A stretch of 64,000 nucleotides of DNA from Roridomyces roridus. Its lineage: Eukaryota > Basidiomycota > Agaricomycetes > Agaricales > Mycenaceae. Below are positions 2,717 through 56,966 of the stretch, in pieces. Position 1 is the stretch's first letter. Each line of letters opens with the position of its first letter. Below the pieces are notes generated by a model, which was not told the DNA's origin, did not search any database, and was given only the letters and a program-made list of their open reading frames with translations. The stretch spans positions 17,858 to 81,857 of the forward strand of contig JARKIF010000140.1 in assembly GCA_029378245.1 (NCBI GenBank), read 5' to 3'. The position numbers were made by a program, and so were the translations under genes.

Positions 2717-3502
2717 TCAAAGCTTTGCCGATGGACGATACTTGAGACTCGGCGGGGCATCAAAGTCGGCGAGCGAACGATACACGAGTTTCGCAGAGTT
2801 GAAGTTGCGGACACTGGCGAAAGGTTTCCTCCCTTGGAAGGTAAATGTTTTGTAATCCACCTCATCAAGCGCCTTCATCCCATTATTTGCGAGGACGCGG
2901 CCAGAGTTACTCGTCGCCATTGACACGGCATGCTCGAAGCCCCTCGCCCTCGCGTTCATGGTGGCCAGCACCATGGCCATCTCGGCGGCGTTCCGGTTTT
3001 GAAAATCCGCGGCCGTGGCACCCAGAAACAAGTCGATCGTCTTGTCCCCACGAATTGTACCACCGCTCGCAGCACAATGCGCGTCGTAGGAGGCGCTCAG
3101 CCGATCGAGCACCTCATACACCGCTTCCAGACCCGGCAACGGCTCCCCATGGTCCGACTCGTACGGCACCACGACGCAGACTGCCTTCACCTCGCCGCGC
3201 ACCTTGACAAGTGCGGTCAGGCCCGACTTGGCGGAGTGTTCTACAGCTTCTTTGCAGAGCGTGCGGAACGAAGCTATGACCTGCTCGGCGGCGGAGGCGT
3301 TGGGGGCACCTGTTATCAGCGCGCCTATGATGGGCTCGCGCTCGGAGAAGGCGGATAAAGCCAGCGCGACACACTGCTCCATCTCGGTGGGGTCGTCGCG
3401 TAGGAATCCCATCTCGGCATCGAGCTTCCGGTTCATGGCAGTGGCGATTTCCTTCAACTCGTCTGGTATTGTGGATGTCGGCTGGCTCGGGGTAGCCTTC
3501 AT
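2717..3502 (-). CDS. GNAT-family N-acetyltransferase-like protein
   Basis: An intronless frame of 261 codons from the ATG at 3502, chosen because the tandem copy starts at the same MKA- codon; the frame is open further upstream, but that part is not conserved. The C-terminal half reads like a GNAT fold: a helix ending ARARGFEHAVSMAT, then a strand-turn with SNSGRVLANNGMKALDEVDY, the usual alpha4/beta6 end where the enlarged family has 'LGF..v.ei.Y', and a final GRKPF like fungal GNATs ending in GxRPF. GNAT enzymes move acetyl from acetyl-CoA to an amine; the substrate here cannot be read. No signal peptide or membrane segment is visible, so a cytosolic protein is expected. A near-identical frameshifted paralogue lies just upstream on the same strand. 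Confidence 0.68.
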   Translation of the reverse strand: MKATPSQPTSTIPDELKEIATAMNRKLDAEMGFLRDDPTEMEQCVALALSAFSEREPIIGALITGAPNASAAEQVIASFRTLCKEAVEHSAKSGLTALVKVRGEVKAVCVVVPYESDHGEPLPGLEAVYEVLDRLSASYDAHCAASGGTIRGDKTIDLFLGATAADFQNRNAAEMAMVLATMNARARGFEHAVSMATSNSGRVLANNGMKALDEVDYKTFTFQGRKPFASVRNFNSAKLVYRSLADFDAPPSLKYRPSAKL

Positions 3503-3574
3503 GTTGGCGGCTGCTTGGGTGGTCTGTGGGCGGGGCGGGGGAGTCGCAGTGACGTGGCGGGGTTGGCAAAACAA

Positions 3575-3662
3575 TGTAATTAAATACACCTGTACCCAAC
3601 TGTACCTGGGCCTTCCATCTTGATCACAATTGAATTGACATGACAAGTCTCCGGAATTGTTC
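3575..3662 (-). promoter_or_regulatory. Promoter block conserved between tandem GNAT copies
   Basis: About 85 bases upstream of the intact GNAT gene (including ATTAAATA, CTGTACC and CCTTCCATCTTGATC words) recur at about 5342-5419 upstream of the frameshifted copy. The duplication therefore carried the 5' region with the gene. The AATTAAATA word is the best TATA candidate, roughly 75 bases from the start codon. Confidence 0.5.
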
Positions 3663-4500
3663 CTTTTCGACAGGGGTCCGGCGTGCCGAATGATACGTAC
3701 ATGGGCAGTTTCATCTCACAGCCAGCGTATCGAGTTGACAATCCATTTGCAAGTCGCGCCTGCACGGCGTGGAGATCGAACCTTGAATTTTTACGGCGCT
3801 GGCGCCAATGATACTTGACCGCGGCCAGAATTCCACCGGAACCGGACTTGCTGAATGCAAATTGCAGGCAAGAAGACTTGAGTTTTGAACAGTGAGGACG
3901 AGCACCCAATAGCGACACCTCGGTCCTCGTGGGGGTCACGGACGGAGTCGCTGTGCCGAGTTGGTTCTGGCGTTAATGCGTGAAACAAATAACCGAGCTT
4001 GCATCGGACAGTCCGGAGTGTCTTGTGAGTATGTACAACGCGCAGCTCCGCTGACTAATTTCCTGCCCGTCCATCTCCGGTTCTTCCTCCGTGGTCATCC
4101 GATGATTGTGCATATCTTATCTAGATTACACTTTCATGTAGAATATATGAACCCCCACTTCAATCGAAGACCCCCGTGCGTTTGCCACGGCTTCCCTGCT
4201 ATTTGGCTGCACTACACAGACGAGATCCAACAGAGTGAGCAGCTGGGCCCCTCGCAGACGGGTTTCGTGTTGTGGACTGATCGATGATCGTCTTCCTTGA
4301 CGCTGATCATGTCTCGAGCGCGAATGTCGACTCCTCCACCACGACGATTCAAATCGAAACTCATAGAACGTGCACTAATGGCCGATGTCTGTCTGAATCA
4401 TTCATCCAATTTAAGTATTCCTACTCCGTAGCACAGGGTAACAGCCTGCTCCTCGGTCAATATCAACGGCGCTAGGACATATTCACAGTCAATACGTACC
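3663..4500. other. Spacer between the tandem GNAT copies
   Basis: About 840 bases with no convincing gene. The part next to 4500 resembles the sequence beyond the stop of the other copy (both contain ATTCACAGT...ATACGTAC), so the duplicated unit includes the 3' flank. Confidence 0.45.
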
Positions 4501-5281
4501 TCAAAGCTTGGCCGAAATACGAGATTTGAGACTCGGCGGTGCATCAAAGTCGGCAAGCGAACGATACATGAGTTTCGCGGACTGGAAGTTGCGGACACTG
4601 GCGAAAGGTTTCTTTCCCTGGAAGGTAAACGTCTTGTAAGCCACCTCGTCCAGTACCTTCAACCCTTGATTTGCGAGAAGGCGGTGGGAGTTACTGCTGG
4701 CCATTGAAAAGGCGTGCTCGAAGCCGCGAGCACGGGCGTTCATGGTGGCCAACACCATAGCCATCTCGGTCGCGTTCCGGTTCTGGAAGTCTGCGGCTGT
4801 GGCACCCAGTAACAGGTCGATCGTCTTGTCTCCACGAATCGTACCACCACTGGCAGCACAATAGGCGTCGTAGACATCGCCCAACCGACCCAGGAGATCG
4901 TAAACGGGCTCCATGCCTGGCAACGGCTCCCCATGGTACGACTCGTACGGCACCGTAACACATATTGCCTTCACCTCGCCTCGCACCTTTACCAGCGCGG
5001 TTAGACCGGCCTTGGCGGACTGCTGGATGCCTTCTGTGCAGAACGTGCGGAACGACGCCATGACCTGCTGTACCGCGGCGGCAGAGGCACCAGCTGTAAG
5101 CGCACCCACGATGGGCTCGCGCTCGGAGAAGGCGGAGACAGCCAGGCGTGACACACTGCTCGATCTCGGCGGGGTCGTCGCGTAGGAATCCCATCTCGGC
5201 ATCGGCTCCGAGCTTCCGGTTCATGGCTTCTGCGATTTCCTTCAACTCGTCTGGGACTGTGGATATCGGGTTAGCCTTCAT
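4501..5281 (-). pseudogene. Frameshifted tandem copy of the GNAT gene
   Basis: The start (MKA-, ATG at 5281), length and end match the gene at 2717-3502 codon for codon, but the frame breaks after the residues EIEQCV. Near 5141-5150 this copy reads GCCAGGCGTGACAC where the intact copy reads GCCAGCGCGACAC, one extra base. Downstream the second frame (5202-4501) is open to the normal stop and keeps the same residues (for example GGTIRGDKTID, ADFQNRNATEMAMV). No GT-AG pair explains the shift. The long intact remainder means a recent break or a base-calling error; expression from an internal start such as a Met in the second frame cannot be excluded. Confidence 0.7.
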
Positions 5282-30680: not shown

Positions 30681-32670
30681 GCTGACACACTCTGGCTGCG
30701 GACGACGTTAAGGTTGCTTGATTCAACTCTCGTCTTGGCGTTCCGAGTGCCCAATTAGCGGATCTGATGGGCTACATAATCAACTCATCAATTGCTTTCA
30801 GTGAAGTTTCAGGCAACTCGTTCGACGATGCTCACGGGCTCCTCCCATGCAGACACGCATCAAGTCTGGTCACCGCAGACACACTGGGTCCTGAGATTCG
30901 GTTCGTTTGTCGAATGCCAAAAGGCATTCTTCTGCAACGGCATCCTTGTCGAGGAAGAAGGAAAAGAAAAATCACTTCCACCCGGTTCAACCTGGTCCTG
31001 AATCGATTGGACGCGGTGGCAGCGAGATCTCAGTTCGGTCAAAAGTAGCAATCGGTTTCCTTGCCGATTCCATGGGTGTGATCATATCCCGGATCACTCA
31101 GAACGCTATATGTATCTAGCACGAGCAGCCGCACGGCGGCGTAAAAGTGCAGGGCGCCTCACATGCCAGAGCGCAGATAGCGCCGGCCTGCGATCAAATT
31201 GTCAGTGACTTGACCCAAGGACGGGAGAATTGTGGCTTCAAAGCCATACCGGGGCGGGGTTGGCACCGACGATGGGCTGTGTATTCATCCATCTGGTCAG
31301 TTCTTTCTCGGTATTATGGTACAAAACCCACCACAAGGATGAGAAGGGCGGTGCTGAGAAGGGTCGATGGAGAGAAAAATTTCATTGTGGGTGGTCAAGG
31401 AAGCGGTCGTCTGGGCTTTTATTTGAGAACGGGACCTTTCGTCAGTCGATACCCGAGTTCTAACTTCTCCGTCAACGGGTCTCCGAGGCTACTCGCTGGC
31501 CAGACCCATATATGTTTATGGATCAGCATAATTGAACTGCAACTTCCTCTGCGCTTCCGTGTTCAATTGAATTGTGGATCGGGCCCGTTTGTTTCAGGTC
31601 CGCGCCGTTGTCAGCGCAAGGGAAACCAAATTGCCCTGCGCCCCGGGCATGTACTGTGCCGTCTTAAAATTGCATGCCCACATCATGACTAGTGAGTCCA
31701 GGTCCCGTAACTAAATGTTGATTCATTTATCCCGTTCGCGACGGAGGATGGGTATCATTGGCACAAGTACAGAAACTGCTGCGGATAGCGATTGAAGTCG
31801 GGTGCGTACGCCGTATACACATTTCCCCCGGTGTGATGAAGCCAATAGTTGAATCGAACCGTGGGAAATTACTGTCTGTACTGATGTGATCACCGGGAAA
31901 GAAGCCCCGTCATCACGGCGCAATCACTGGAAATCAGGGGACCTGACTATACAGGTTCACGAGCCTGTCTAAATGCCGTTGGGGTGGCTTAGATCTGGTC
32001 AGACCTCGGGCATCAAATCCCCGGGATGTGTGAGTTCTATGCCGCCGTTCGGAACGTTCCTGAATGCTAGTCTGGTTGGGTATTGTCCAACGGTACCGTT
32101 CTTTATGTTCAACATCCGCCGTCGCCGTCGGACTCTGGACTCGGTATAGCACGTATAAACATCATCACTTGGTGAGTCCCGCACTGAATCAACACTACAT
32201 TTTTGATTCAGCCACTGGCCGCGGCGGATGGCTATCGTACCGCTCCCAATGTATCGAAACGCTGCAAATCTCGTTTTACTATGCCTATTTGAAGATGCAA
32301 TACCAACCGATGCAGTGCGACCGTGGGACATCATCTGATCGCTATCAACCCGATCGTAACTTCTCGCTCACAAGTGCCACCAAAGTGCCACACGCGTAAA
32401 CACCCAGGGATCCAAGGAGGCTACTTATTGCAGCCTTTCCGGCTCCGCTCTATTCGCATGTGAGCTCCAGCCTCCGCCCATTTCATTACTCCAGAGTCCA
32501 GAGGCTATCCAAGACACCGCCCGTCCAAAACAGACATCGGGTGGAGAGCCACATGATACTCAAATCTTATGTCCATGGCTGGGCACGTCAGCCAAGAAAA
32601 TCGATTTACAGACACTCATCAATTTACACCCATAAGTACTCCCACTCTCCTTGCCCTCGAAACCGACCAC

Positions 32671-32976
32671 TCAGATGGCCGGTCTGGAACATTTGCACGA
32701 ACACGGAGGAACGAAAGTGCAGTCATCCAAGCAGGCTATATCGCATGTGATTCTCCCCGGCTAGAATTCAACGTCAACATTCGGAATAGTTGCCGCGTCC
32801 AGCGGACGGACGTACCTCACGAATCAGAGCAGGGGACGCCGCTGCGTTGACGAAGCCCTACATAAAAGTGAGCTGAAGGTGCATGGGAGGGGTGGGATAG
32901 GACTTGCAGCCAGGAGGAGTGCGCCCAGGGCTGGAATGAGGAGATGTGTGAGGGTGACTTTAGCGTTGAACTTCAT
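32671..32976 (-). CDS. Secreted six-cysteine peptide, family member A
   Basis: Three exons on the minus strand: 32976-32908, 32857-32816 and 32760-32671, all joined in phase 0, 66 residues. Exon 1 encodes a hydrophobic leader (HLLIPALGALLLA), exon 2 finishes it and adds a short pro-part (GFVNAAASPALIRE), exon 3 holds the cysteine core CDIACLDDCTFVPPCSCKC. The first intron (50 nt) uses a GC donor, GCAAGT; the second (55 nt) is GTACGT to TAG. Six cysteines follow C-x3-C-x3-C-x5-C-x-C-x-C exactly as in the three relatives nearby. Family not known to me; expected to be exported and disulphide-bonded. Exact conservation of core and exon plan is the evidence, since each exon is too short to judge alone. 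Confidence 0.75.
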
Positions 32977-33015
32977 TTCTCGCTCGTTTGTATGTGTGGA
33001 ACAGGACTGACGCTG

Positions 33016-33022
33016 CTTTATA
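33016..33022 (-). promoter_or_regulatory. TATA box of peptide gene A
   Basis: TATAAAG on the minus strand, 40 bases before the start codon at 32976. Confidence 0.5.
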
Positions 33023-33275
33023 CGCTGTCGCCGCCCACCTCACATGGCTATATTGAGGTACAGACAGGCTCGGACGGCCAGCGTCAGCCACAGATTCACT
33101 AGCGGTATTCGGAGTTCGCACATGGTTGTCAAGAGGAGGTAGGAATCACAATTCACGATTTGCCAACATCTGAATAACCTTGTCATGTATTCAAAGTTGC
33201 TAATAAAGAACCCTGAGACACTGCCACAATAGATTCAACCGTGTCAAACTCTCCGTATCCGATCATCCCAGCGCG

Positions 33276-33552
33276 TCAGGCCGCATTACTCGGGCAAGTG
33301 CACGAGCACGGCTCGGTGAATCTACAAGGTGGGTCGCATGCAAGGTCACACCCGCCGGGAATACGCTGCGAATGTGGTTCAGCGCTCAGCGGAATAAGTA
33401 CCATGCGCGGCGTGGCGTACCGTGATGGCGGTGACCGTCGGCTACATACAGTTCATGAGATGGGAATTGACGAAGATAATAAGGTGGAAGCTCACGATTG
33501 AGATGAGGAAAAGAGCGCCAACGGCTGTTACGATTTGCAGGGTGAGTCTCAT
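33276..33552 (-). CDS. Secreted six-cysteine peptide, family member B
   Basis: Exons 33552-33496, 33441-33421 and 33365-33276, phase 0, give 55 residues. The leader reads MRLTLQIVTAVGALFLISI; exon 2 is only seven codons (PTVTAIT), shorter than in the relatives; exon 3 carries CDLACDPPCRFTEPCSCTC. Introns are 54 nt (GTGAGC to GTAG) and 55 nt (GTACGC to GCAG). It is the most diverged of the four in leader and core, yet keeps every cysteine interval. Minus-strand GATAAAAAG about 50 bases before the start may act as TATA. It is divergent from member C, sharing a 546-bp upstream region. Confidence 0.72.
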
Positions 33553-34098
33553 GATGCTGATAGGTGGGGAGGCAGGTGGGATTTAGGGCGGCGCAGCCAT
33601 AGCTTTTTATCTGTTGGAATCTATTGAGTTCTCTCCATGGGGGTCCTCAGACTTCGCAATAACTCGGGCTCCTGAATTCTGGTCTATTCTATTCCAAGGT
33701 CCGCCCACGGTGAAACAACCCGAGCGACCCGGAAGCATCAAAGTGGGCCCACTCCGCTGTCAGTCTCCCGGGTCCCGCTGGACATCAACTTTCCCTTTCA
33801 TTCGCGTGTTGAAACGTTCACGAAGCAGATCGATCGCTGTCACCAGGCGACGAAGTGAAAGACGAGTTTTCCTTTCTGTGCTGCATGAAAAGCAAAACTT
33901 TGTGTGGCAAAGACTTACGGTGCGGAGCGCCAATTCCCGCCATCAACTCCTGCGACTTAATGCGGGCGACACCCAGTAACCGAAGCCCTACGCGCAAGTC
34001 TAGGCACCCTGTGGAATTCGGGATGACGTCTGTCGTAGCCCTGACCCTCAATAAAACTGAGCGGCCTGCTTGAGACCGTCGATACAAAGTTCCAAACC
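33553..34098. promoter_or_regulatory. Shared upstream region of peptide genes B and C
   Basis: The two genes diverge from this 546-bp interval. The same interval, 75-90% alike by eye, lies upstream of member D at 37645-38174, including GGATTTAGGGCGGCG and GAGTTCTCTCCATGGGGGTC. Candidate TATA elements are GATAAAAAG (minus, near 33601) and AATAAAAC (plus, near 34051). No long frame inside makes sense as a protein. Confidence 0.5.
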
Positions 34099-34365
34099 AT
34101 GCGGGCACACCTCCTCATTTCAGCCGTCAGCGCACTTATCCTTACTGTGAGGGCTAATGAATATTTATCGCTGCATGACTAACGGAGACGAGTAGAGTGT
34201 TGTCCACGCAGCCTCTCCGGCCGTTGCTCGTGCGCCTTCAGTACGTCGAATCACCAAGCTCTTCTACCTGACTCACACCGGAAACTCGCCCAACAGCCCA
34301 TCTGCGACATGTTGTGTTTGGGCAATTGTGTGTTTGTTCCGCCGTGCGAGTGCAAATGCTCCTGA
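34099..34365 (+). CDS. Secreted six-cysteine peptide, family member C
   Basis: Exons 34099-34146, 34196-34240 and 34297-34365, phase 0, give 53 residues. Leader MRAHLLISAVSALILT plus SVVHA from exon 2, a pro-part ASPAVARAPS, then the core PICDMLCLGNCVFVPPCECK and CS. Intron 1 (49 nt) has branch CATGACTAAC and ends GAGTAG; intron 2 (56 nt) runs from GTACGTCG to CCAACAG. Read without splicing, the frame stops within 25 codons, so ordinary ORF finding misses it. It is the tandem copy of member D: leader and introns are close to identical, while the cysteine loops differ (DML/LGN against DIE/PVD), as if the loops evolve faster than the scaffold. Confidence 0.75.
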
Positions 34366-34607
34366 AGGGTTTATAAATGAATTGTGAGCTGTGACTGTCC
34401 CAGCCAAGCGTTCGTTACATACGTGTAAAACCCTGTTGCGCGGAAATCAAAGTGAGCTGCCTAGTGAACCTCCCAAAGAATTACAAATCACCTCCGAGGG
34501 AATCTAGAAAATACAAGGAGTGCTGAAGTATACGAAATGACTACGATAAATGTAAAAAGAAAAACATTGACTTCCCACTCCCCGCTTGAATAGAATCGTT
34601 CATGATG

Positions 34608-37600
34608 GGGCTTACAGAAACTGCCGCACTGCCGCACTTTTGCCGCAGCAGCTACCGCACTGAACCGCGTGGTGCCGCAGTGATGTCACACTACCGCAGT
34701 GTCACTACCAAACTTAAAATGAGATTAACGGCTGAATTTGTAGCCTACTACCTGAGGACTCTTTCACTGGTGTCCGTTTTTGAAAAAGGCAAGTGGGTTG
34801 CGAGTTAAACCAATTTTAATGAACATCGGCTAAAGTGGGTACTAGTAAGTCGAGCCTGTTTCGAACGATGAAGGGCCACCAAAATGCGTGCAAATGGTTT
34901 GTGGGGAAGCTACCGGATGCCTTCTGACTACCAATGCCTCCGAGAGTAGTCAGCAGCTCGGAACTGATTTCAATTTGTGCATTCGCGTTGCGTGACCTTG
35001 TTTGGTGCGCGCTCCTTGTCTTGAACCACCACCATCGCCGAGATAGTTCTGGTCCCGGCGGACCACGCTCACAAATCTTCGGTCTTCCATCGGCCTCTGT
35101 GATTCATCCTGATCCAGTTCAAAGTTCAGAATATTGGCCTGGAGAGTCTAGAGCTGCGGTTGAAGATGGCCTGGTGAGTTCATTCCGCTCATTTGCCACC
35201 CTCCTGTGGCTCAGATATTGGGTCACGCTCCAGTACTTGTCGATCAGGCAAAAGGCAAAGCCGATTCGCCGTGCAACATTGAATGCGCAAGGAGATAAAC
35301 TTGAAATTGACTGGGTCGGTGACACCAAGTCATACAGGCCTTTTGCTCGAAAGCAGGTGCCGCGACACTGCCGCAACTGATGCTCCGAGCGTACGATTTG
35401 TCTAAACCATCGCAAAATTGACTATCTGGGTGCCCCGAGGGAGTTACGCCCTCCGAACAGCTGCCACTTTGTTCGACACATTTACTTAAAAATTGATTTA
35501 TCTCCTGTTTGAACTTTCGCACTCGGAAACGGTGATGAGCATGGAATTTGACTGCCCTTGAAAACACGCTTTTTGCACCATTTCAGATGTGGTTTCCATA
35601 CTATATGATCTCAATATGAGAGCTGATGTCGAGCCCAGAGACAGTCAGTACGGTGGATACTTTAGAGTACTGTACAGGTTGAAGGGTATTTACCTGGATA
35701 CGACTGATGGACTCACTCCGAAACACGTAGGAGGTGTGGATACCTGCCTTACCAATGGGATACACCAATTAAACAGTTCTTAACCGTTGTACGATTGTCA
35801 GCAGTTCGAACCTTGGTGCAAGTGCAATTCGGAGGTTCGGGAGTTCACGGAATGATGGACAAGTCGGCCGAATGACCTGAAACATGAGCAGACCGCCGAG
35901 ACGGGTCCGATGGAAGTGACGTAGTAGCTGGAACAAGTGGATTCCGGCTCGGATACGGACTTTTAGTCAAGTATCTGCTGGTATCTGAGACCAAGAGTGG
36001 GAGATATGGGTATCGTTCGAGACCTACAACACGTGGGAGTACGTTTTGAGGCCATACTCTGGAGGGGAAGAAGGGATACAAGATATCCAAACTGTCGGAG
36101 TCATGGATCAGCGATGGAATCACGAGATAACATGCTGAATCATGGCTTGGCGCTCTGGCTGACTGAGCACCAGTGCCAGATCAACCAATCAGGTCGTTTC
36201 TATTCAGGATACGTGGGAGATTCATCATTATTGCGCCATTCATTTGTACTATCATATGATTCCCGGACATGTATAAAGTAGATAGAGTGTTACCCAAGAG
36301 GGCAGCGGATACTTCCCCCACTAGCAAGCTACCAGCTGCGACTAAGGGATTTGTCCGAGGCTTTCGAAGGTGCATTGCGTAGCTTAGCAATCGCCCTTGA
36401 AAATCTAAATTGTTGTTTTGTTGGCTCCCGTTGTGTGAATTGAGTTTGAAGCATAGTTTGGTTCGAGTGCAAGTTGGATTGTGACTAGGGTTTCAGCTCA
36501 GTGGCAGCTTTGGAAGGCTTGCTACGGCTTGGTACGGTTTGTGTGTCAGTTAGGGTCTGGTTGTGTGTTCAGTGTCAGGAATTGGTTCAGGAATTGTTGG
36601 AATTTGTGAAATCCGTGTTGTATCGGTCGCTGTCGTCTTCAGATACCAGTGTAAAAGGGATCGAGAGACCCAAATACCTGCTTTATTGCAAAAACCCGGC
36701 TTTAGCCAAACTCAATCTATCTTTTGTGTTAGCTGTGAAGCTTTAAAATCTACAAAACGCTTTAGAATCGCCATCCTTGGTTCATATCAAGGATTTTGAT
36801 TCGCAATACAAAACTCGACCAATCATATCGAGACAATATCACAGTATTCCCTACAACCTTTCATAAGGCCCTGTACTAGGGACTTATACTCGCCTTCGCC
36901 TGCTGTCAATATAGTTGTCACTCGCCCCGGAGCTTCGTGATTGGGTTGTTTAGATATAGATTCGTCTGTATCGAGACTCATCTAGTCTTGTTGTTTCGAG
37001 TTGGTTGATTTCTATAGTAGGTTTTGAGCACATACATCAACGGTCAACGGAAGCTTGGATGAGAACAAACCATCCATCCAAGGGTGTCCATGTCTCGAGA
37101 GGAAAAAATTTAGAGCAAAGTGCGGTAGTTTACAACTACTGCTGAATTGTCACACTGCCGCACTGTCACGACGCTTAGGTGCCGCACTGCGGTGCGGCAG
37201 TTACCGCTTTACCGCAGCTTCCAAAAATTTGCCGCGACTTTTTCGTTCAGCTGCCGCACTGTAAGTGGTACTTTGCCGCAGTTGACCGCAAGGTGCCGCA
37301 CTGGACCGATTTAAGTATGTAAGTATACTTGAAAATTTGGATGATCTCTGTTCGATTTGGGGTTCTGTGGGACTCCAGATACAATACTTTTACCTTGATA
37401 GGTGACTCATGCAGAGGACAGGCTCCAACTCCTAAATCCAAGTTCAAAATCAGATGAAACAGGCTCAATTACAGGTTCTTCGCGACTCCAGATACAATGG
37501 CTTAACGTACGACAGCTCAACATGCTTAGGGAAGTCTTCGACCATATACAACAGCTTGCTGTGAATTTACCTACCGCAGCTGCATGCCGCACCACTACCT

Positions 37601-37642
37601 CAACTACCGCTGCGGCAGCAGTGCGGTAGTTTCTGTAGGCCC
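34608..37642. mobile_element. Mutator-like DNA element, non-autonomous
   Basis: Ends read GGGCTTACAGAAACTGCCGC and, inverted, GGGCCTACAGAAACTACCGC, alike at all but two of about 24 positions. The flanks are a perfect 9-bp repeat TTCATGATG (34599-34607 and 37643-37651), the size typical of Mutator-like transposition. Subterminal zones at 34614-34700, 37110-37310 and 37560-37630 are full of CCGCACT/AGTGCGG words. The 3.0-kb body has no frame above 150 codons and no transposase or zinc-finger motif. Stray frames such as 34934-35380 were not recognised and may be captured or random sequence. Confidence 0.8.
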
Positions 37643-37644
37643 TT

Positions 37645-38644
37645 CATGATGCTGATGGGTGGAACTCGGGAAGTTTGAAGTAGGATTTAGGGCGGCGTAG
37701 CCATAGACTTTTATCTGTTGGAATCTATTGAGTTCTCTCCATGGGGGTCCTCACACTTCGTAATAGCTCGGGCTCCTGAATTCTGGTCCATTATTCCAAG
37801 GGTCGCCCACGGTGAAACAACCCGAGCGACCCGGAAGTATCAAAATGAGCGCACTCCGCTGTCAGTGACCCGTGTCCCGCTGGACATGAAATTTCAACTG
37901 TTCTTTTTCCTTGGCGTATTGAAACTTTCACGAAGGAGTCATCAGAAGGACAAAACCTTGTGTGCCAGAACTCCTGGTGCGTACCGCTAATTCCCGCGAC
38001 TCATTACGGGCGACACCCGGTTGCCAAAGCCTTACGGTCAAGTCTGGGCACCCACACAATACGGGCCCCCGGTTTGAAGCAATAATTGGAATTCGGGAGG
38101 CCGTCTGTCGTAACCCTAACCCTATATGAACCTGAGTCGCCTAGTTGAGACCTGTAGATACAAACTTACCGACTATGCAGTTCCACCTCCTCATTTCAGC
38201 AGTCAGCGCACTTATCCTTGCCGTGAGTGCGAATCACTGTTGGCCGGTCCTGACTGACGGAGACGAGAAGAGTGTGGCCCACGCAGCCTCTCCGGTCGTT
38301 GCTCGCGAGCCTTCGGTACGTCGAATGAACAAACTCTTCGCCCTGACTCACAGGGGAGACTCGCCCAGCCCAGCCTAGTTTGTGACATCGAATGTCCGGT
38401 CGATTGTGTGTTCGTTCCGCCGTGCAAGTGCCAGTGCTCCTGAAGGGTTGCTGGATAAAGACGTGATTGTGAGCTGTCCCAGCTACTTCGCAGAGCGTTG
38501 GGAAACTTACGTGGCCGCGGAGATCACATTGGACTTCTCTTGAACCTCCCAAAAAGAATTAAAAACCCCGTCCGAATGAATTTAGAAAATACAAGGAGTG
38601 CTGAAGTATACAAAATGACTACGGTACCCCGTTTGAATAGAATT
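37645..38644. repeat. Tandem duplication, unit 2
   Basis: Matches 33551-34595 over its length with scattered substitutions and small indels. It begins with the remnant of gene B's start region and contains gene D. The TTCATGATG target of the Mutator-like element lies exactly at its left border. Confidence 0.75.
38175..38443 (+). CDS. Secreted six-cysteine peptide, family member D
   Basis: Exons 38175-38222, 38271-38315 and from 38369 (or 38354) to 38443. Leader MQFHLLISAVSALILA plus SVAHA, pro-part ASPVVAREPS, then PSLVCDIECPVDCVFVPPCK and CQCS. Two in-frame acceptors 15 bases apart (38353 after CTGACTCACAG, and 38368) would give 60 or 55 residues; member C supports the second. The unspliced frame reads on to 77 codons and loses all but one cysteine, so splicing decides the product. 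TATATGAA near 38124 is a TATA candidate, 50 bases from the start. Function unknown; secretion and three disulphides are inferred. Confidence 0.75.
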
Positions 38645-38807
38645 GTCTCTCTCCTAACGTGATCATGTCGCTCTCATATAGGCATACGGATGCTCGACGG
38701 GATTGGCAAACCGCGGAACCCCTACCGTTTCGGCATCCGAACTGACAGACCGCAGTTCATGGCGGACGCCAAGGTCAGATTCCTGTTTCGAATTCAACTC
38801 AAATCAA
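38444..38807. other. Convergent 3' spacer
   Basis: The left 200 bases belong to duplication unit 2. The remainder lies between the ends of peptide gene D and the reverse-strand DUF6534 gene; nothing else seen. Confidence 0.45.
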
Positions 38808-47748: not shown

Positions 47749-49328
47749 GCCGCTATGTACGTAGCCGGATTCCGCGGGATGTAGAAAGGGAGGATGCGGT
47801 GAGAAGCGGAGAGCCGATTTATGAGGCTGGAGCCCAACGCCACAGGAATATTCCCGCCGAGGCTCTCGAGTCGAGGTTACGCACACAGAGAGAGGAGAAA
47901 ATGTCTTGGTCCGTCGCTCCAGCCCGATACTTGAGGACGACCGTCGGCTAAGCTGCTACTATCAGCGGCGACCTGGCCGTTGGCAGGAGAAAATAGACAG
48001 GGTCGGAAGGTGTATTCAATCAAGTCACGTCCCTGCCCTCCGTAAGCCGGCGTATTGTGCCGGTTGCGATCGCACGTCTGGACATCTCCTTGGAGTGCTC
48101 TGAGACAACAGGAGAGTGAGATGAGAAGCAGAGGATTTCGGCACAGGGGAAAGATCGAGGACTCGTGGCGAGGAAGCCATGTACCCAAACGTAGAGTCCA
48201 GACTCCAGTGCGGAGAGCTCGAAAATTGACGGAAGACGGCCCAGAAGACACGCCTATGTTCTCGCCATCGCACGCTGTCACAGAGAAGAGGCGGGCGTTG
48301 GCCGCCGACACTACATTCGTGCGACAGAGAGGCCGCCGCGGAGGCGTCGGGCGACGCTTGAAGGAGAAGACAGGATGCCCACGTGGCGGTGTCTTTTATT
48401 TCTGAATTGATCCGCTACCGCAGATCACGTTACGATTCCTAACTTGATTAGGAATCGTTCTTTATGAATCTGTCTTCATCAAACCATCCCCGATGCCCAT
48501 TTGGAACTCGGAACATGATCCGAGCCAGATTGCCGTGCCTTACTTGCATCAAGAACTCGGCGATTTCCGTACATACCTTGAGTGAAGATCTCGATTATTT
48601 CGTTCGCGGGTCCACCGTGGGTCCGTGACTGGCATAGGAATAGAATGGGATGCAAAGAGGCGAGGACGGATCCGAAGTCCGACTTGCTTATTGACAGTTG
48701 ATTGGCATTGACAGCGGTGCTCATGTTCGGACAGCGGGAACCCGAGGTATCTGCCGACTCTCTGCCTTCATGCTCTGGGTCTCGGATCCCTGTATGTACT
48801 ATGTAGCGTGCAATCTCGCTCGGAGTCAACCACATAGACCCGGGAAATGGTGATTGAAATCAGCCGGTAAGCAGATGAAATGCCTCGGCGGCGATGTGTG
48901 TCAGCATCCCTTGCTTTCTCTGCCCACAACGCCGTCTCTTGCCATGGTCGTGCTCTTTCCGCCTCTCTTGAGTCTTGCTAATATGGCCGACACTCTTGGA
49001 TTCTGGGGTACTTACTGGGATTCTGGTCCATCTGCGTGCCGGGCCCAATCTGCTCTCATGGTTACCGGCATGCGGTGCCGCCCAATCTTCGATAACACCC
49101 TCTTGCACCTCGTCTCGCCTGCCTCAGAGGCCTGCATCGGGGTCGGGTCTTTCTTGCCTACAGGCATTGCAGCTCCTGGTATGCCTGGTTACGACCGCTG
49201 TCGTCCGTTGTCGTTGTCTTGATACACGTATCTTTAGCATGCGGCGGCGCGCACGTCGAATGCCTTGATCTTTGTGTATCTGACAATATAGAAGGTATGT
49301 GTGCCGTTCTTTCGCTCGTTGAAATTGT
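47749..49328. other. Unassigned DNA before the Helitron
   Basis: Frames on both strands (for example minus 48835-48479 with a GTATGT donor after IIEIFTQ, and plus 48854-49270) have no recognised domain. The 5' end of the Helitron may lie here; I could not find a convincing TC terminus. Confidence 0.35.
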
Positions 49329-52300
49329 GTGATGACTGAATCTCACCCAGATACCACCAGTGAACACATCGGGAGCATTGGTGACGTAGTGGATGGTCAG
49401 TTTATCCCTTTCCTCTGCCCCTACTTTGAATTCAAAGCCGTCGCAGCTATAGAGTGTAATATCTATCCCCGTGCCCCCCGGGTACGGGGTACTTTGTGCC
49501 TTTGCGTGAGCAAGGCCGCCGGAGACGGCAGAACGGGCCTTTGCGTTAGCAAGGCCGCCGGAGACGGCAGAACGGGCCTTTGCGCAAGCAAGGCTGCCGG
49601 AGACGGCATACCAGTGATCTTGAACGTTGCACCGCGCACTCTCGTTGGCTGCACCATGTTTATTGGTCCAGTTTTTCTGAGTGCCGCTGGGAATACGATG
49701 AATTGTATTACGAGATTAGACAAACACTCAATTATCAGGGATCTTGCGATAGACATTGACGATGCCCTCGAAACACCTCAGTCTTCGGGTGAGATATATC
49801 ACAACATTCATTTGCTCCTCGTCTTGGCTGCTGTGTGTCTTTTACTCAGTCTAGTTTCTTCAAAGCTCTGGTCAACTCATGCACTGAATGTGGATCACGG
49901 GCCTGCTCAAAACCTCCTTGGCGGCGGCAGACGCGTTAATGGTAAATTCTCGAGCAGTCTGATTGTCCCATATATCATTGATAGTCACGGGATTGAAAAC
50001 CTCGGTCGGGGTTCCTTCATGTTCGAAATCCAGTGCTTACGAAGTGAGATTCACATCCACCTGCCAAAAAACCGGAATTTTGTTGCTGTGGACATACCAT
50101 TGGGTATAATTCTGAACCTCTTGACAACCCATGAGCTGCGTCACACTGCAGACTTGCACGGAGTTCATCTGTACAAGAAAAATCGACTGGCGGAATCACA
50201 GGAAATTATGAATGGCCATTCATGTGTTTCCAGTAATTGTCGAGACCTTGTCTCGATTATGTGTTTCATGTCTCCACCTGAAGATAAGCCCAGCACCATG
50301 TCTGATGCATATAGACAGCATCAAGACGAGCAGAGAGCAAAGGAGGTAGCCCAACTCAGATATGCACAGAAACGGGACTTGAATGAATTGTTACCTGCAT
50401 TTTTCCCTCCTGAACCTCTCAAGAAATCAGAATTGCATCGTATTTTGACTGGCAGCTGTAATGCATTCCTCCCGGAGAAATTCGTTGAAGCTGGTTGCGC
50501 TGTATGCGGAATGCTGTATCCTTTAACTAAACTTTCGCGTTTGAGTGAATTTTCTGGGTCACTGGATGTTCTGTGTGCTCAAGGAGTAACCAGAAAGGAG
50601 CGATACCGTAGCAGTGACCCAATCGAGGAACTCTCTGGGCCTGTCCTCGCAGAAGGTTGCACACATCTGTGTGTTTACTGTGAAGGTTCTCTAGGGTCTA
50701 GAACCATCCCCACAAATGCATTGGCTAAACATGGCTGGTTGGGACCTGTTCCGCCCGAATTGCAAGACTTGAGTTATGCCGAGAGTGTCATGATTGCCAA
50801 GATAAGACACAACCGATGTGTTATGCGGGTCAACTCCGGCAGAGTGCGAATGCATGCCAATGCTATCATGTTCGCTCAGCCGGTTCTGAAGGTTTACTTG
50901 AAGTTACCTCCCTCAAAACAGGAGATGAGTGAGATCCTGGCTTTTGTGTTCACCGGCTCTGCAGCCCCAGCTCAAGAGGATTTTGATCGAACTCCAATGC
51001 TGGTCCGCAGAGATAAAGTTGCAGCTGCCTTGGACTGGTTGAAATTGAATCACGAGGGCTATGCAGACCTGGAAATCTCGGAAGAAAACTTGCTGTCTTA
51101 TAAGCACCATGATATTCCAGTTGAAGTTGATTGCAGAAGAACAAATGCAGATCCGGAGGACTCCATCCCAGCGGTCGCGCGCAGTGTTCACGATGAGAAT
51201 GAAGAACATGGAACCTCAGAAGGTCTGTGCTCATTTGCAGTTCATGGTTTGACTGGGGTTGAGTACTCCACGGCCACGATGGACACAATCAAAGCTGTGG
51301 CACTCCAGCATCTCACGAGACAAGGAAGCATGCTGGGTATTGGACGCAGTGATGTGCCGGAGTCCATGTATGAAAATGTTGAAGCATATCCTGGAATGTT
51401 TCCTTGGTTATTCCCGTATGGTAAAGGTGGAATTGGCCATCCCAGCCACAAATATAAAACTTCAGATCTTAGCCGTAAAGGAAATTTACTGATGTACCAC
51501 GATAAACGTTTCCAGACCGATATGTATTTCCCCATGATCGCATTCAACCACGAGCAACTAAGAGGGTCATCAGTGGGTAGCAAAGCTTTTGTTAAGCGTT
51601 CAAATTTTCCCGATGTTGCCCGAAGATTGCGCAGAATAGATCACCAGGTGTCGGGCAATATTGCTGACCGGCTTGTTGAAGGCCTCCATGTTCGGCCCGA
51701 GACTGACCAGGAGAAAGACTGTTTTGACCTCATGCACGATTTCGATGGAATTGGGGCTTATGTACCTGGTTCGGCAACAAGCAAACGGCATATGCGGAAT
51801 GAAATCTGGTCCAGCACAGCATTTATGGGGGCTCCAAGCTGGTTTGTAACCATGTCCTGGAATGACAGTGGCCATCCACTTGCATTGTATTATGCCCAAG
51901 AGGACACCATCTTCAGACCTGAGATCAAATCCGCTGATGAGCGCTACAGATTGATGTCCAAAAACCCTGTCGCAGCTGCACGATTTTTTCATTACATGAT
52001 GGAGGTATTCATTGAAGAAATTTTGTGTTGAAAAAAGGAAGACGCGGGTGCATTCGGTCACACTGGGGGCTTCTATGCAGTTGTTGAACAGCAAGGCCGG
52101 CTGACCCTTCACTCACATTGTTTAATCTGGGTGAAAAATGCACTGTCACCCCAGGATATCCGAGACAGGTTAACAGCTGAAGATAGCATTTTTACAATGA
52201 GGCTCATGGCATATCTCGAGTCAACCCATCAAGGTAGATTCAACCATGGCAAACTCGCTGATGTGCAAGCTCGAGTGGGTGTTGACTCGCAGATTTCCGA

Positions 52301-55300
52301 GGCCACACTGGATACTCACAAGTACCAGGCACCGACATTAACGTTTCCTGAGCCTCCTCCTCCTTTATGTGACACTGTCAACTGCCATGGAACATGTGTG
52401 GCTTGTAGCCATTTGTCAGAATGGTGGGATAGATATGAACATGAAGTGGACGACTTGCTGGTTAGGTCCGATATTCACAGCTGCCGGCACTCAGTCAAGG
52501 ATGTTGAAGAGGAGAATAATAAAAAATATTGGCGGCATCTCAAGAAGCGCAACAAAACCAAAATTCGCATTCATGAACGGCGAGGGTGCCTCACAAAATC
52601 TGGGGTCTGCAAGGCTCGATTTCCCCGTGATGTTGTGGAAGAAACCGTAGTTGATACAGATGGTCATATTACTTTTGAACATTGGGAGCCGTACATGAAT
52701 ACAATCAACACTTTGATTACCTATTTCTCTCGGTGTAACACTGACTGTACTAGCCTCTTGTCTGGTACTGCAGTTAAGGCTGTAATCTCCTATGTTTCTG
52801 ATTATGTGTCAAAGTTGGGGCTCAAATCATACCAGGCCTTTGCCTCTGTTTTTGATGTGTTTGATCGAAACTCTGATAATTTTGACAGTACCAGCGCTGA
52901 TGAGGATACCACAAGAAAACTTATGAGACAAATGGTCAACGCGATGTCCATGAAGATGGAAATTGGGAGTCCAATGGCATCACTCTATCTCCTTGGAAAT
53001 CCGGATCACTATGCTAGTCATGAGTATGCAAATTTTAGCTGGCGTACCTACGTGGCCTATGTGAAAAGAGATTGGGCAAGAGATTTGCAAAATAATTTAA
53101 CCATGGACCTTGATGACACTCCCGAAGACTTCATAACCCTGCAGAACAACAGAGGAGACATCATTGTGTCTTCAATTGTCGACGATTACACAATGCGTCC
53201 GTCGGTCTACAACTCTGTCAACTTGTATGAGTGGATTCAGTCACATCAGAAGAGGGCATTCACCAAATCGGAAAAAGATCATATTCTACAGGAGCGTGAA
53301 CTGTACAGTGCGTTTGAGAAAGATATCAGTGACTCAGATAGCTCCTCCTCCTTCATTGATGGAGACCAAGATTTGACGCAAAGCAGTGCCAATGAATCAG
53401 ATGATGAAATTCAATTTGAGCCTGGTGATGCAAAAACTACACCACCCAAGTACCCCTTCATCGGAGAACACCGACAGAAAGACACCCATGGTGTGTACTG
53501 TGACTTTTCCAGGCTCAACAAGATAATCCCAAATTTCATGGGAGGTGCCATTCCACGATCAGACCGTGGAGATCGTGAATATTACTGTTTATCTATTTTG
53601 ACAATGTTTAAACCTTGGCGTTCACCGAGAGATCTCAAGGAGGTGTCCTCCACTTGGGATGAAACCTTCAATGATCACACCTTCACTGGACGGCAACACA
53701 AGTTGTTGAAGAACTTCAACCTCCGTTTTGAATGCAATGATGCACGAGATGATCACTATGCAGCAATGAAACGCAAACTGGCTGAAGCAGATTTTGAACC
53801 TTCCAGCCGTTTCAACCAAACCATCCTGGGTCACAAGGATGATGTCGTAGACTTCATTGATGATGAGCTAGAAGAATTTGAAGATTACTCTGCGCATGAA
53901 ATTGGTCCCAAATCTCGTAAATTGAAAGCGCAGATGGAGGAGATAAGGTCCGTACTGGCTGGTTCTAAATGGCTGAATAAAACAACTGACGGTTTGATCA
54001 TGAATGTTTCGACTGAAGCTTTAACTCCACCTTTCAAAACTAAAACAAGCTGGTCAAAAATTGTGGACGCCGAGAGAAAGCTGCTCACAGTCAACAAATT
54101 GGCCAATATGCCTACAAGCTATTCCGGTCATGGTGCACCATTCACTGCGGCTACACACAACAAAGTCGAGGAACTGCCATTCAACTATTTCACCTCTGCT
54201 CAAAAAGTTGATGCAGACTTGAACATGAACATCAAGCTGGAATGCTGTGACTTCTTTACATTGAACATTGAACAGACCAGAGCATTTACAATTGTGGCAG
54301 ACCATGCCTCAGCAGTCCAGTCAGTGCCATTGAGAATGTATCTCGGTGGCATGGGAGGTTTGGGTAAATCACAAGTCATCAAGGCTATTAGCCGGTTTTT
54401 TGAAATGAGGAATGAAAATTACAGGTTTATGTTCCTCGGACCCACAGGATCAACCGCAGCTCTTGTAAATGGCTCCACTTACCATTCTGTCTTCAAGGTG
54501 CCTCGAGAAACAGGGCGCAAAAATAGAGATGACATTGACGGAATTCGCAATGAAGCAACAGCAATGGCAGCTGTCAATGAGCGCATCCAGGGTGTAGAGT
54601 ATATTTTCCTTGATGAAGTGTCCATGGTGTCCTGCAACGATCTGCAAACCCTGGCAAGTCAGGCTGCCAAGGCCAGAAATATCCATGATGTTGCATTTGG
54701 GGGATTGAATGTGATCCTGGCCGGTGATTTTGCACAGTTGCCACCAACTCGGGGCCCTGCTCTGTATGCATCCTTGAAAACCCCTAGTCTTGCAGATGCA
54801 AATACCGATTTTGATCAAGCCTCAATTCTGGGTCGTATGATTTGGCACCAGTTCAATACTGTTGTGATTCTCCGGCAGAATATGAGACAGAGTTCTTCCA
54901 CAGCGGAGGGTTTAAAACTGCGTACTGCATTGGAAAATATGAGATACCGTGCATGCACCGCTGAAGATATTGAATTCCTGAGATCCCGTGTAGCCAGTGA
55001 CAAGCCGGGTCATCCACGTTTGGACTCTGTTGAGTTCAGAAATGTGTCTGTGATCACTGCCTGGAATGTGCATAAAGATACAATAAATCAACTGGGCGCA
55101 GAGAGGTTTGCCGCAGACACTGGCCAAGAGCTCCATGAATTCTACTCTGTTGACCGAATGAGTGCAGCAAATGTGGACCGAAGGAAGTGCAAGAATTGTC
55201 CCCAAGCCCGAGTCCGTCGAATTGGTCCGCAGTTGCAGGAGCAGCTCTGGATGGCAACACCGTCGGCAACAGCAGAGCATGTTCCCGGCTGCTTGCGTCT

Positions 55301-56966
55301 ATGTGTAGGCATGCCTGTCATGATCAAATCAAATGCTGCTACTGAACTCTGTATAACCAAAGGTCAAGAGGCATCTGTGCGTGGCTGGAATCAATCCATT
55401 GGTCCTCATGGGAAACCCATACTAGAAACTCTCTTCATGGAGCTGATGAATCCACCGCGGCCTATACAGATCCCTGACCTTCCGCAGAATGTTGTGCCCT
55501 TGCCTCGAGCAACAATGAAAACAACAGCACTACTTGAGGATGATTCACTCCTGAGCTTGAACAGAGAACAGATCCCAGTCCTGCAGAATTTCTCAATGAC
55601 GGATTATGGGGCACAGGGAAAGTCAAGAAATCCAAATGTTTGCCATTTGAATAATTGTCAGAGCCATATGGCTTACTATGTTGCGCTGTCCAGGGGAACA
55701 CAAGCATCAGGAACAGCCATCATTCAAGGCTTTGATGAAAAAATGATCACAGGTGGAATCACGGGATTTCTTCGTCAGGAGTTCCGTGAGCTTGAGATGT
55801 TGGATGAAATTACAACCTTGAGGTATAATGGTGAACTGCCGTTGCAAGTGACTGGTTTTTACCGTGGTCAACTTCTGCGTTCCTACTTGCAGTGGCGCAA
55901 AGACGATAGTGATCCAGCACATATACATCCTGCTATACGGGCGCACAGGATCATCTCAAATATTTCCCCCGATGTGTACAACACCTGGAAACCGACGGGT
56001 GTATCTGCAAAACGAGGCACCAGGCGATGTTCCGCAAGCGATGTTGATACAAGAAATCCAAAGACAAGAAAGACTCAGCATCACAACAACCGTGAAACAC
56101 AGGCCGGGCTGAGCTCAGGTGGAAGTCCGATTGGCCTTGTGTGGGATAATGTGAACTGGAGTTGTGGCTATGATGCACTTTTCACGCCACTTGGCCATCT
56201 GTGGCGATCCGATAAGCAGAAGTGGACCACCCTTTTCAACCATCTGAATCCCATACTGCGTCTCTGGGCAAACTGGATGGTTGCCCATGAGGACACTCCT
56301 GAGATACCCAGAGATGAAGCCAGGCAGTCTTTGACCGCTTCTGATGCCTCCAAATTTCCTCTCGGACCTGTGTGCTTGCGACTCGATGATCTGTTCAGTT
56401 CTGTCTCCAATCAAGTAACATATGGCCAGGCGAGAACCTACTGTAATGTTTGTGGCTACTTGGAAGCTGGACTCACTGACACTTTTGGAATGCACTTGAC
56501 AACATACCGAACGCACGACTTGGGAAATGGTCAGATTACCACAAGTCAATGGTTGTCTCATCATTTCAACCGATCCATTCGAAGGCAATGCCCACAATGT
56601 GGTTCTCGAGGAGCTCGTACACACCTTTGCCGGCAGACAAATATAATTGCAGTCCCGCCTATTTTCATTCTCAGTATAACCATGAGTGAGCTTATTGTTG
56701 AAGACACTCTGCATTTCCGGACAGAGAGCACTGTGGATCAAATGAATCTTGTCGGTCTTATCTATCACTCCGAGACTGATCGACATTTCTCAAGTGCCAC
56801 CGTCGGCGATGATAAAGCTCTCTGGTATCACGATGGAATTGCTACAGGGAGGCGCTGCGTGCCAATGGGTTATATCTCTTCATTTGACAATCATTCGCTG
56901 CATAACCAGGGGAGCTACAAGCTGGCAGCGGCCATATACAGCCATTCCGCATCGACACCCATCTGA
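49329..56966 (+). pseudogene. Helitron RepHel protein with one in-frame TGA
   Basis: A frame of about 2,545 codons broken only by TGA at 52029-52031. N-terminal part: a region with CAVCGMLYPL and RVRHNRC-like text (DUF6570 type, about residues 390-560), then Helitron Rep N domain (FPWLFPYGKGG, GAPSWFVTMSW). After the stop: HUH motif in GRLTLHSHCLIW (52110-52118), tyrosines of the Y2 motif in YVSDYVSK (from 52791). Pif1-type helicase: Walker A GGMGGLGKS (54345-54371), Walker B IFLDEVSMV, GDFAQLPP, and VALSRG near the end. C-terminus: a cysteine-protease-like domain described separately. The N-terminal start is uncertain; frame upstream of about 49700 includes a 39-bp repeat and may be leader. 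Whether the stop is real, bypassed or an error is open. Confidence 0.85.
49500..49606 (+). repeat. Three 39-bp direct repeats
   Basis: Nearly three tandem copies of a unit containing AGCAAGGCCGCCGGAGACGG. If translated in the Helitron frame they encode repeats of CVSKAAGDGRTGL. The GC-rich unit contrasts with the AT-richer Helitron gene body. Confidence 0.8.

Follow-up and report, generated by a model that had tools for sequence, protein, structure and literature searches.

A five-gene cluster in the mushroom Roridomyces roridus predicted to encode small exported peptides with a six-cysteine core

Gene models of the cluster

Can a mushroom genome hold a family of exported peptides whose coding parts are too short to appear as open reading frames (ORFs), and if so, what might such peptides do? 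The question is raised by a cluster of small genes in a 64,000-nucleotide (nt) stretch of Roridomyces roridus (Mycenaceae) contig JARKIF010000140.1 (hereafter the window, in whose numbering all coordinates are given). The cluster spans 31116-38443 and comprises five small genes, A to E, each with three exons, phase-0 joins and two introns. Each gene predicts a precursor of 50-66 amino acids (aa) with the core C-x3-C-x3-C-x5-C-x-C-x-C. Taken whole, the proposal that these genes form a single-locus, tandemly grown family of small exported peptides, most likely used in defence, seems to us evenly poised. The gene models are as follows, with TATA-like boxes given relative to the ATG and the loop being the three residues between the second and third cysteines.

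31116..31385, minus strand: gene E; exons 31332-31385, 31250-31276 and 31116-31187; 50 aa; GT-AG introns of 55 and 62 nt; TATA-like box at -38; core CALACEAPCTFTPPCGCSC; loop EAP
32671..32976, minus strand: gene A; exons 32908-32976, 32816-32857 and 32671-32760; 66 aa; intron 1 GC-AG, 50 nt, intron 2 GT-AG, 55 nt; TATAAA at -46; core CDIACLDDCTFVPPCSCKC; loop LDD
33276..33552, minus strand: gene B; exons 33496-33552, 33421-33441 and 33276-33365; 55 aa; introns of 54 and 55 nt; TATA-like box at -59; core CDLACDPPCRFTEPCSCTC; loop DPP
34099..34365, plus strand: gene C; exons 34099-34146, 34196-34240 and 34297-34365; 53 aa; introns of 49 and 56 nt; TATA-like box at -49; core CDMLCLGNCVFVPPCECKC; loop LGN
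38175..38443, plus strand: gene D, a tandem duplicate of C; exons 38175-38222, 38271-38315 and 38369-38443; 55 aa; TATA-like box at -52; core CDIECPVDCVFVPPCKCQC; loop PVD

A first-pass annotation had described genes A to D. All four spans, their three-exon phase-0 structure, the core and the four loops were reproduced exactly, and its intron range of 48-56 nt for these genes holds with D intron 1 taken as 48 nt. Its family size of four was too small, as it missed gene E. Across the five genes the introns measure 48-62 nt. The 48-nt form of D intron 1, with an AAG acceptor, follows the alignment to gene C; an alternative GAG acceptor gives 45 nt and adds one Lys. Nine of the 10 introns have GT-AG splice pairs, the sole GC-AG pair being that of A intron 1 (32858-32907), and a YTRAY branch-like motif is present in seven.

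A six-frame scan of the window found the core at five places; 60 order-1 Markov sequences matching the window in length and composition contained none. We built gene models under fixed rules (two introns of 44-66 nt, an ATG leader exon, a hydrophobic leader, phase 0), which returned one model per core, apart from two for D that lie one codon apart. Both these rules and the TATA pattern were drawn up after the genes had been seen, so it is as plausibility checks, not p-values, that we report three-exon models for all five cores versus none of 6000 random open 19-codon stretches, and TATA-like boxes 38-59 nt upstream of the ATG in all five genes versus 5.8% of 20,000 random 90-nt stretches. The models agree with the earlier suggestion of a local family hidden by introns. 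Exon lengths are 21-90 nt, and coding parts this short would escape ORF scans and could keep the genes hidden from annotation. On these grounds the five genes are almost certainly real.

Precursor anatomy and cysteine core

Exon 1 encodes a short N terminus and a hydrophobic stretch, with a best 11-residue hydropathy of 2.63-2.76 in all five precursors. Exon 2 carries a V/A-x-A site in every case (VGA, VNA, VTA, VHA or AHA), at similar, not identical, alignment columns. Judged by hydropathy and the classic -3/-1 rule, the leader and these sites would fit a signal peptide and its cleavage; there are further candidate sites beside them. If cut at V/A-x-A, the predicted mature peptides would have 27-38 residues (about 3-4 kDa). 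The leader and cysteine exons of the first-pass annotation hold up. Its "pro-part" label for exon 2 does not, because the V/A-x-A site lies within exon 2 in all five precursors and none of them has a [KR]R site; it is more aptly read as the predicted last part of a signal peptide, followed by a short linker.

The [KR]R search also led us to set aside a Kex2-processed repeat precursor of a ribosomally synthesized and post-translationally modified peptide: the site is missing from all five precursors and each has a single core. Mating pheromone precursors were rejected as well, as we found no CaaX ending with an aliphatic middle. Genes C and D have a cysteine at the fourth-last position (CKCS and CQCS); A, B and E do not.

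Exon 3 encodes the cysteine core, in which six cysteines fall within 19 residues. Among the 12 invariant alignment columns, eight are in the core, namely the six cysteines, one Phe and one Pro, and the loop columns are the most variable of the core. A Pro between the second and third cysteines is found in B, D and E. Cysteines make up 21-25% of the residues when counting starts five positions ahead of the core; this and the 50-66 aa of the precursors match the size and cysteine richness usual for small secreted cysteine-rich proteins (<300 aa, cysteine-rich). The invariant cysteine frame, the variable loops and a leader typical of secretion had all been noted beforehand and are seen again here. 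By these features the peptides are very probably secreted and disulfide-bonded.

Two AlphaFold2 models of cores, made from five-row alignments, reached a mean predicted local distance difference test score of 72.9 and 77.4, with blocks of 75-88 covering most of the core, and predicted template modelling scores of 0.31 and 0.34. Both contain a beta-hairpin formed by the x-F-x segment and the x-C-x segment of C-x-C-x-C, and neither contains a helix, so that the models would weakly disfavour a defensin-like helix. In a rigid geometric search with the first three cysteines placed on a helix, two of six disulfide pairings were feasible (1-4/2-5/3-6 and 1-6/2-5/3-4), which does not decide connectivity; the C-x3-C-x3-C and C-x-C-x-C spacings have similar rises. 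A helix-strand disulfide ladder was dropped because three of the five peptides have Pro between the second and third cysteines and neither model is helical.

Six cysteines in 19 residues could also serve a different chemistry. C-x-C motifs occur in metallothioneins, and the C-x-C-x-C segment together with the other cysteines could chelate copper or zinc as thiolates, without disulfides, in secreted metal-binding peptides. Given its leader, the peptide would enter the secretory pathway, an oxidising environment, which argues against a cytosolic role, and the invariant Phe and Pro and the predicted beta-hairpin suggest a folded scaffold; we regard metal binding as very unlikely.

Evidence for selection

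In five of the six cysteine columns some genes have TGC and others TGT, with the amino acid unchanged. The codon of the invariant Phe varies between TTT and TTC, and the sixth cysteine column and the invariant Pro each have one codon throughout. For the closest pair, C and D, the synonymous and nonsynonymous divergences (dS and dN) are 0.361 and 0.155, giving dN/dS of 0.43 from only 39 synonymous sites; in exon 3 it is 0.34. The frame looks conserved because the cysteine codons vary only synonymously and C/D dN/dS is 0.43, a pattern that supports purifying selection acting on the cysteine frame. The first-pass annotation had suggested selection on the peptides and proposed the C/D comparison as a check: conservation of the frame stands, and positive selection was not seen in that pair (dN/dS below 1, few sites).

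Search for relatives and comparison with known peptides

We searched the R. roridus assembly (90.8 Mb, 501 contigs, two haplotypes) with the consensus core and found ten places genome-wide, corresponding to five genes in two haplotypes. The five individual cores gave no additional locus in the 90.8 Mb. The cores of A, C and D recover A, C and D and miss B and E, and a search with the B or the E core returns nothing beyond the query itself; with this limited reach more diverged paralogues could be missed. A scan with looser spacing gave no further member in the window, the preceding 17.9 kb of the same contig, or about 94 kb around the second copy of the locus on contig C146.

Against a protein database of 5.8 billion sequences, R. 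roridus proteins included, neither the five precursors (95 candidates) nor core-weighted rows (five candidates) had a match at E<=10, in searches that covered only proteins of about 36-115 aa with a limited word filter, so that longer mis-merged gene models would be missed. Pfam gave no match for the five precursors at E<=10 or for three cores, and among Protein Data Bank (PDB) sequences none was relevant (three leader-only matches at E 0.9-1.1 and one at E 10). One of the five members matched NCBIfam TOMM_BorA (E 0.011), which we put down to composition. Three stretches in viral contigs fit the cysteine pattern, and none was confirmed as a relative. A literature search on the spacing pattern, similar peptides and the species and its group, with subscription papers mostly outside its scope, returned no description of this family. 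The family is thus probably an orphan in the collections searched (protein database, Pfam, PDB, viral contigs and its own genome), in line with the first-pass annotation, which had recognised no published family. Its best reading appears to be a lineage-restricted family of disulfide-rich exported peptides.

Several known systems resemble it in part. Cysteine-stabilised alpha-beta (CS-alpha-beta) defensins such as plectasin and copsin are likewise small secreted disulfide-rich fungal peptides, and C-x3-C and C-x-C elements occur in them as in these cores. The cluster peptides differ in being 27-38 residues long, in their C-x3-C-x3-C-x5-C-x-C-x-C spacing, in having no predicted helix and in not being cationic; no sequence match to a defensin family was found in Pfam (none of five at E<=10) or among PDB sequences. 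In cyclotides the first four spacings are close to 3, 3, 5 and 1, and the last is about 4-5. A ring of Cys1-Cys4 and Cys2-Cys5, as in cyclotides and inhibitor cystine knots, could therefore be of the same size here. The last spacing in the cluster peptides is one residue, leaving little room for a threaded Cys3-Cys6, and the peptides are fungal, not plant.

The nearest functional parallel may be cylindracin. This secreted cysteine-rich mushroom protein resides in the polysaccharide layer of the cap; its activity depends on its disulfides, and its recombinant domain is inhibitory to three filamentous fungi (PMC11532979). Cylindracin/PRI3 of Cyclocybe shares with the peptides reported here a small size, richness in cysteine, secretion, a mushroom origin and a signal peptide followed by a short stretch before the domain, but it is 95 aa long with eight cysteines, and its domain of 59 residues is basic and rich in Gly (PMC11532979), versus 50-66 aa, six cysteines and a neutral to anionic charge here. 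Membership in the PRI3/cylindracin group was set aside on the six cysteines in 19 residues and the net charge of 0 to -2. Minicollagen cysteine-rich domains and plant GASA peptides share the C-x3-C-x3-C opening; minicollagen continues as C-x3-C-x3-CC, the published GASA pattern has many more cysteines, and neither has C-x5-C-x-C-x-C (PMC4195985, PMC9856046). The Ssp1 family of Pleurotus, one of the small secreted proteins of Agaricomycetes, is also an unannotated gene family in a saprotroph; its members are of about 18 kDa, against about 3-4 kDa after the predicted cut and a fixed cysteine frame here (PMC7105643).

Orphan proteins that are small and secreted are frequent in fungi (PMC7105643), and the kind is therefore already known. 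The new elements are the cysteine frame and the hidden cluster of five genes that carries it. The peptides may represent a new disulfide scaffold with invariant Phe and Pro, seen so far at one locus of one mushroom, hidden from annotation by exons down to 21 nt and framing five exported peptides of differing loop chemistry; we put this forward tentatively, with the balance somewhat on the side of doubt.

Duplication, inserted element and haplotypes

Genes C and D lie within a tandem duplication of about 1.05 kb that runs from about the B start codon to beyond the C stop codon. The parts of this region are:

33549..34599: left duplication copy, with the shared B/C upstream region, gene C and the C 3' side (repeat search, families D1-D10)
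34607..37642: inserted repeated element of about 3 kb between the duplication copies, its ends read from the flanks; outside the peptide family
37644..38646: right duplication copy, with the upstream region and gene D, starting about at the B start codon

The right copy lacks gene B because the duplication begins about at the B start codon. Between the copies, the B-proximal upstream part is the best conserved segment (89%; 213 of 239 aligned, 19 gap columns), followed by exons (81%), introns (78%) and the 3' side (74%). The family is best explained as having grown tandemly at a single locus. The upstream block (33553-33793, with its copy near 37648-37895) is thus kept above the exons, though the right copy has no gene B, and is a possible regulatory element.

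End alignment of the inserted element showed imperfect terminal inverted repeats and an 8-nt direct repeat, TTCATGAT, on both flanks; a repeat finder with an 11-base seed reported no inverted pair for 34607-37642. Counting its two places in the window, at least 54 pieces of the genome match its first ~500 nt (40 of 62 candidates scored). The element also contains 13 GCCGCA words, and its longest stop-to-stop frame listed is 150 aa.

The locus copy on contig C146 is 99.5% identical to the window contig (C47) over 12,959 alignment columns, and we infer that C47 is the alternative haplotype of C146. Both haplotypes hold five intact genes, with no differences over 1389 nt; the 26 single-base differences and five insertions or deletions across 12.9 kb all fall outside the five genes. 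The 6.7 kb from 31,734 to 38,462, with A-D and the element, shows no single-base haplotype difference at all, and the flanking 6.2 kb compared has 26; this identity may reflect shared ancestry, a sweep or the assembly.

The absence of an annotated product and the transposable element between C and D would suit a decaying duplicate array, in which the genes are non-functional remnants without a product. However, all five keep their frame, their splice sites and all six cysteines with synonymous codon changes, and both haplotypes are intact, which makes decay hardly credible.

Possible function

An exported peptide family fits because of the leader, the cysteine frame, the variable loops, the local duplication, the TATA-like boxes and the absence of relatives. 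In the proposed course of events the two short introns would be removed from each transcript, signal peptidase would cut after V/A-x-A in exon 2, and the released peptide of 27-38 residues would form three disulfides in the secretory pathway and act outside the cell. The six cysteines, Phe and Pro would hold a compact scaffold, with the three-residue loops and the ends differing between copies. The most likely use would be a chemical defence directed at microbes, rival fungi or small animals, with different copies providing different specificities; we judge a defensive role a little short of an even chance. The slimy stipe for which R. roridus is known would be a natural place in which to seek the peptides.

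Several observations weigh against defence or leave its structural side less firm. Counted over the core, the five residues ahead of it and everything that follows, the peptides have a net charge of 0 to -2, and typical antimicrobial peptides are cationic. The rapid loop evolution that an arms race would predict was not seen (C/D dN/dS below 1, few sites). Pfam recognised no partner, immunity or peptide-linked processing or transport gene among 20 surrounding ORFs (five of ten and none of ten with a match), a set that leaves out many shorter exons. The genes have no promoter word in common in 300-nt upstream stretches searched on the coding strand: no 8-mer is present in three genes, no 7-mer in four and no 6-mer in all five. 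Both AlphaFold2 models are of low depth and moderate confidence.

The anionic to neutral charge and the purifying, not diversifying, pattern would sit well with secreted signalling or developmental peptides, acting in fruiting or cell-surface patterning, with stage-specific copies that bind a receptor or wall component. So would the divergent upstream region common to B and C: its portion next to B is the most strongly conserved segment between the C and D copies (89%). Yet five divergent copies at one locus with different loops do not suggest such a role, and the lack of protein-database homologues would be unusual for a core developmental signal; we consider signalling unlikely.

The cluster is flanked by a gene for a class II peroxidase (26.6-28.0 kb) and, opposite, by an adenosine-deaminase-like gene (42.4-43.5 kb). 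The former bears on whether the peptides are effector-like, a label commonly given to small secreted cysteine-rich proteins, and act on plant or litter partners; an effector role was the first option named in the first-pass annotation. The peroxidase beside the locus, together with 111 matching pieces for one peroxidase query in the two-haplotype assembly, fits a litter or wood saprotroph, and nothing points to a specific host. Small secreted proteins are abundant in saprotrophs too and mostly orphan (PMC7105643). An effector-like role is, by this evidence, decidedly improbable.

If the peptides of the proposed exported family are made, they show that whole families of very short exported peptides can escape ORF scans of fungal genomes and that mushrooms have more defence or signal peptides than are catalogued. 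To peptide chemistry the six-cysteine frame would then offer a compact disulfide scaffold, encoded by genes and variable in its loops.

Other features of the window

Two neighbouring paralogous frames without a Pfam match, at 2717-3715 and 4501-5220 on the minus strand, share 80% identity over 215 residues. A Helitron-type element occupies 49323-56966, with DUF6570 and Helitron_like_N in one frame and a PIF1-like helicase in the next.

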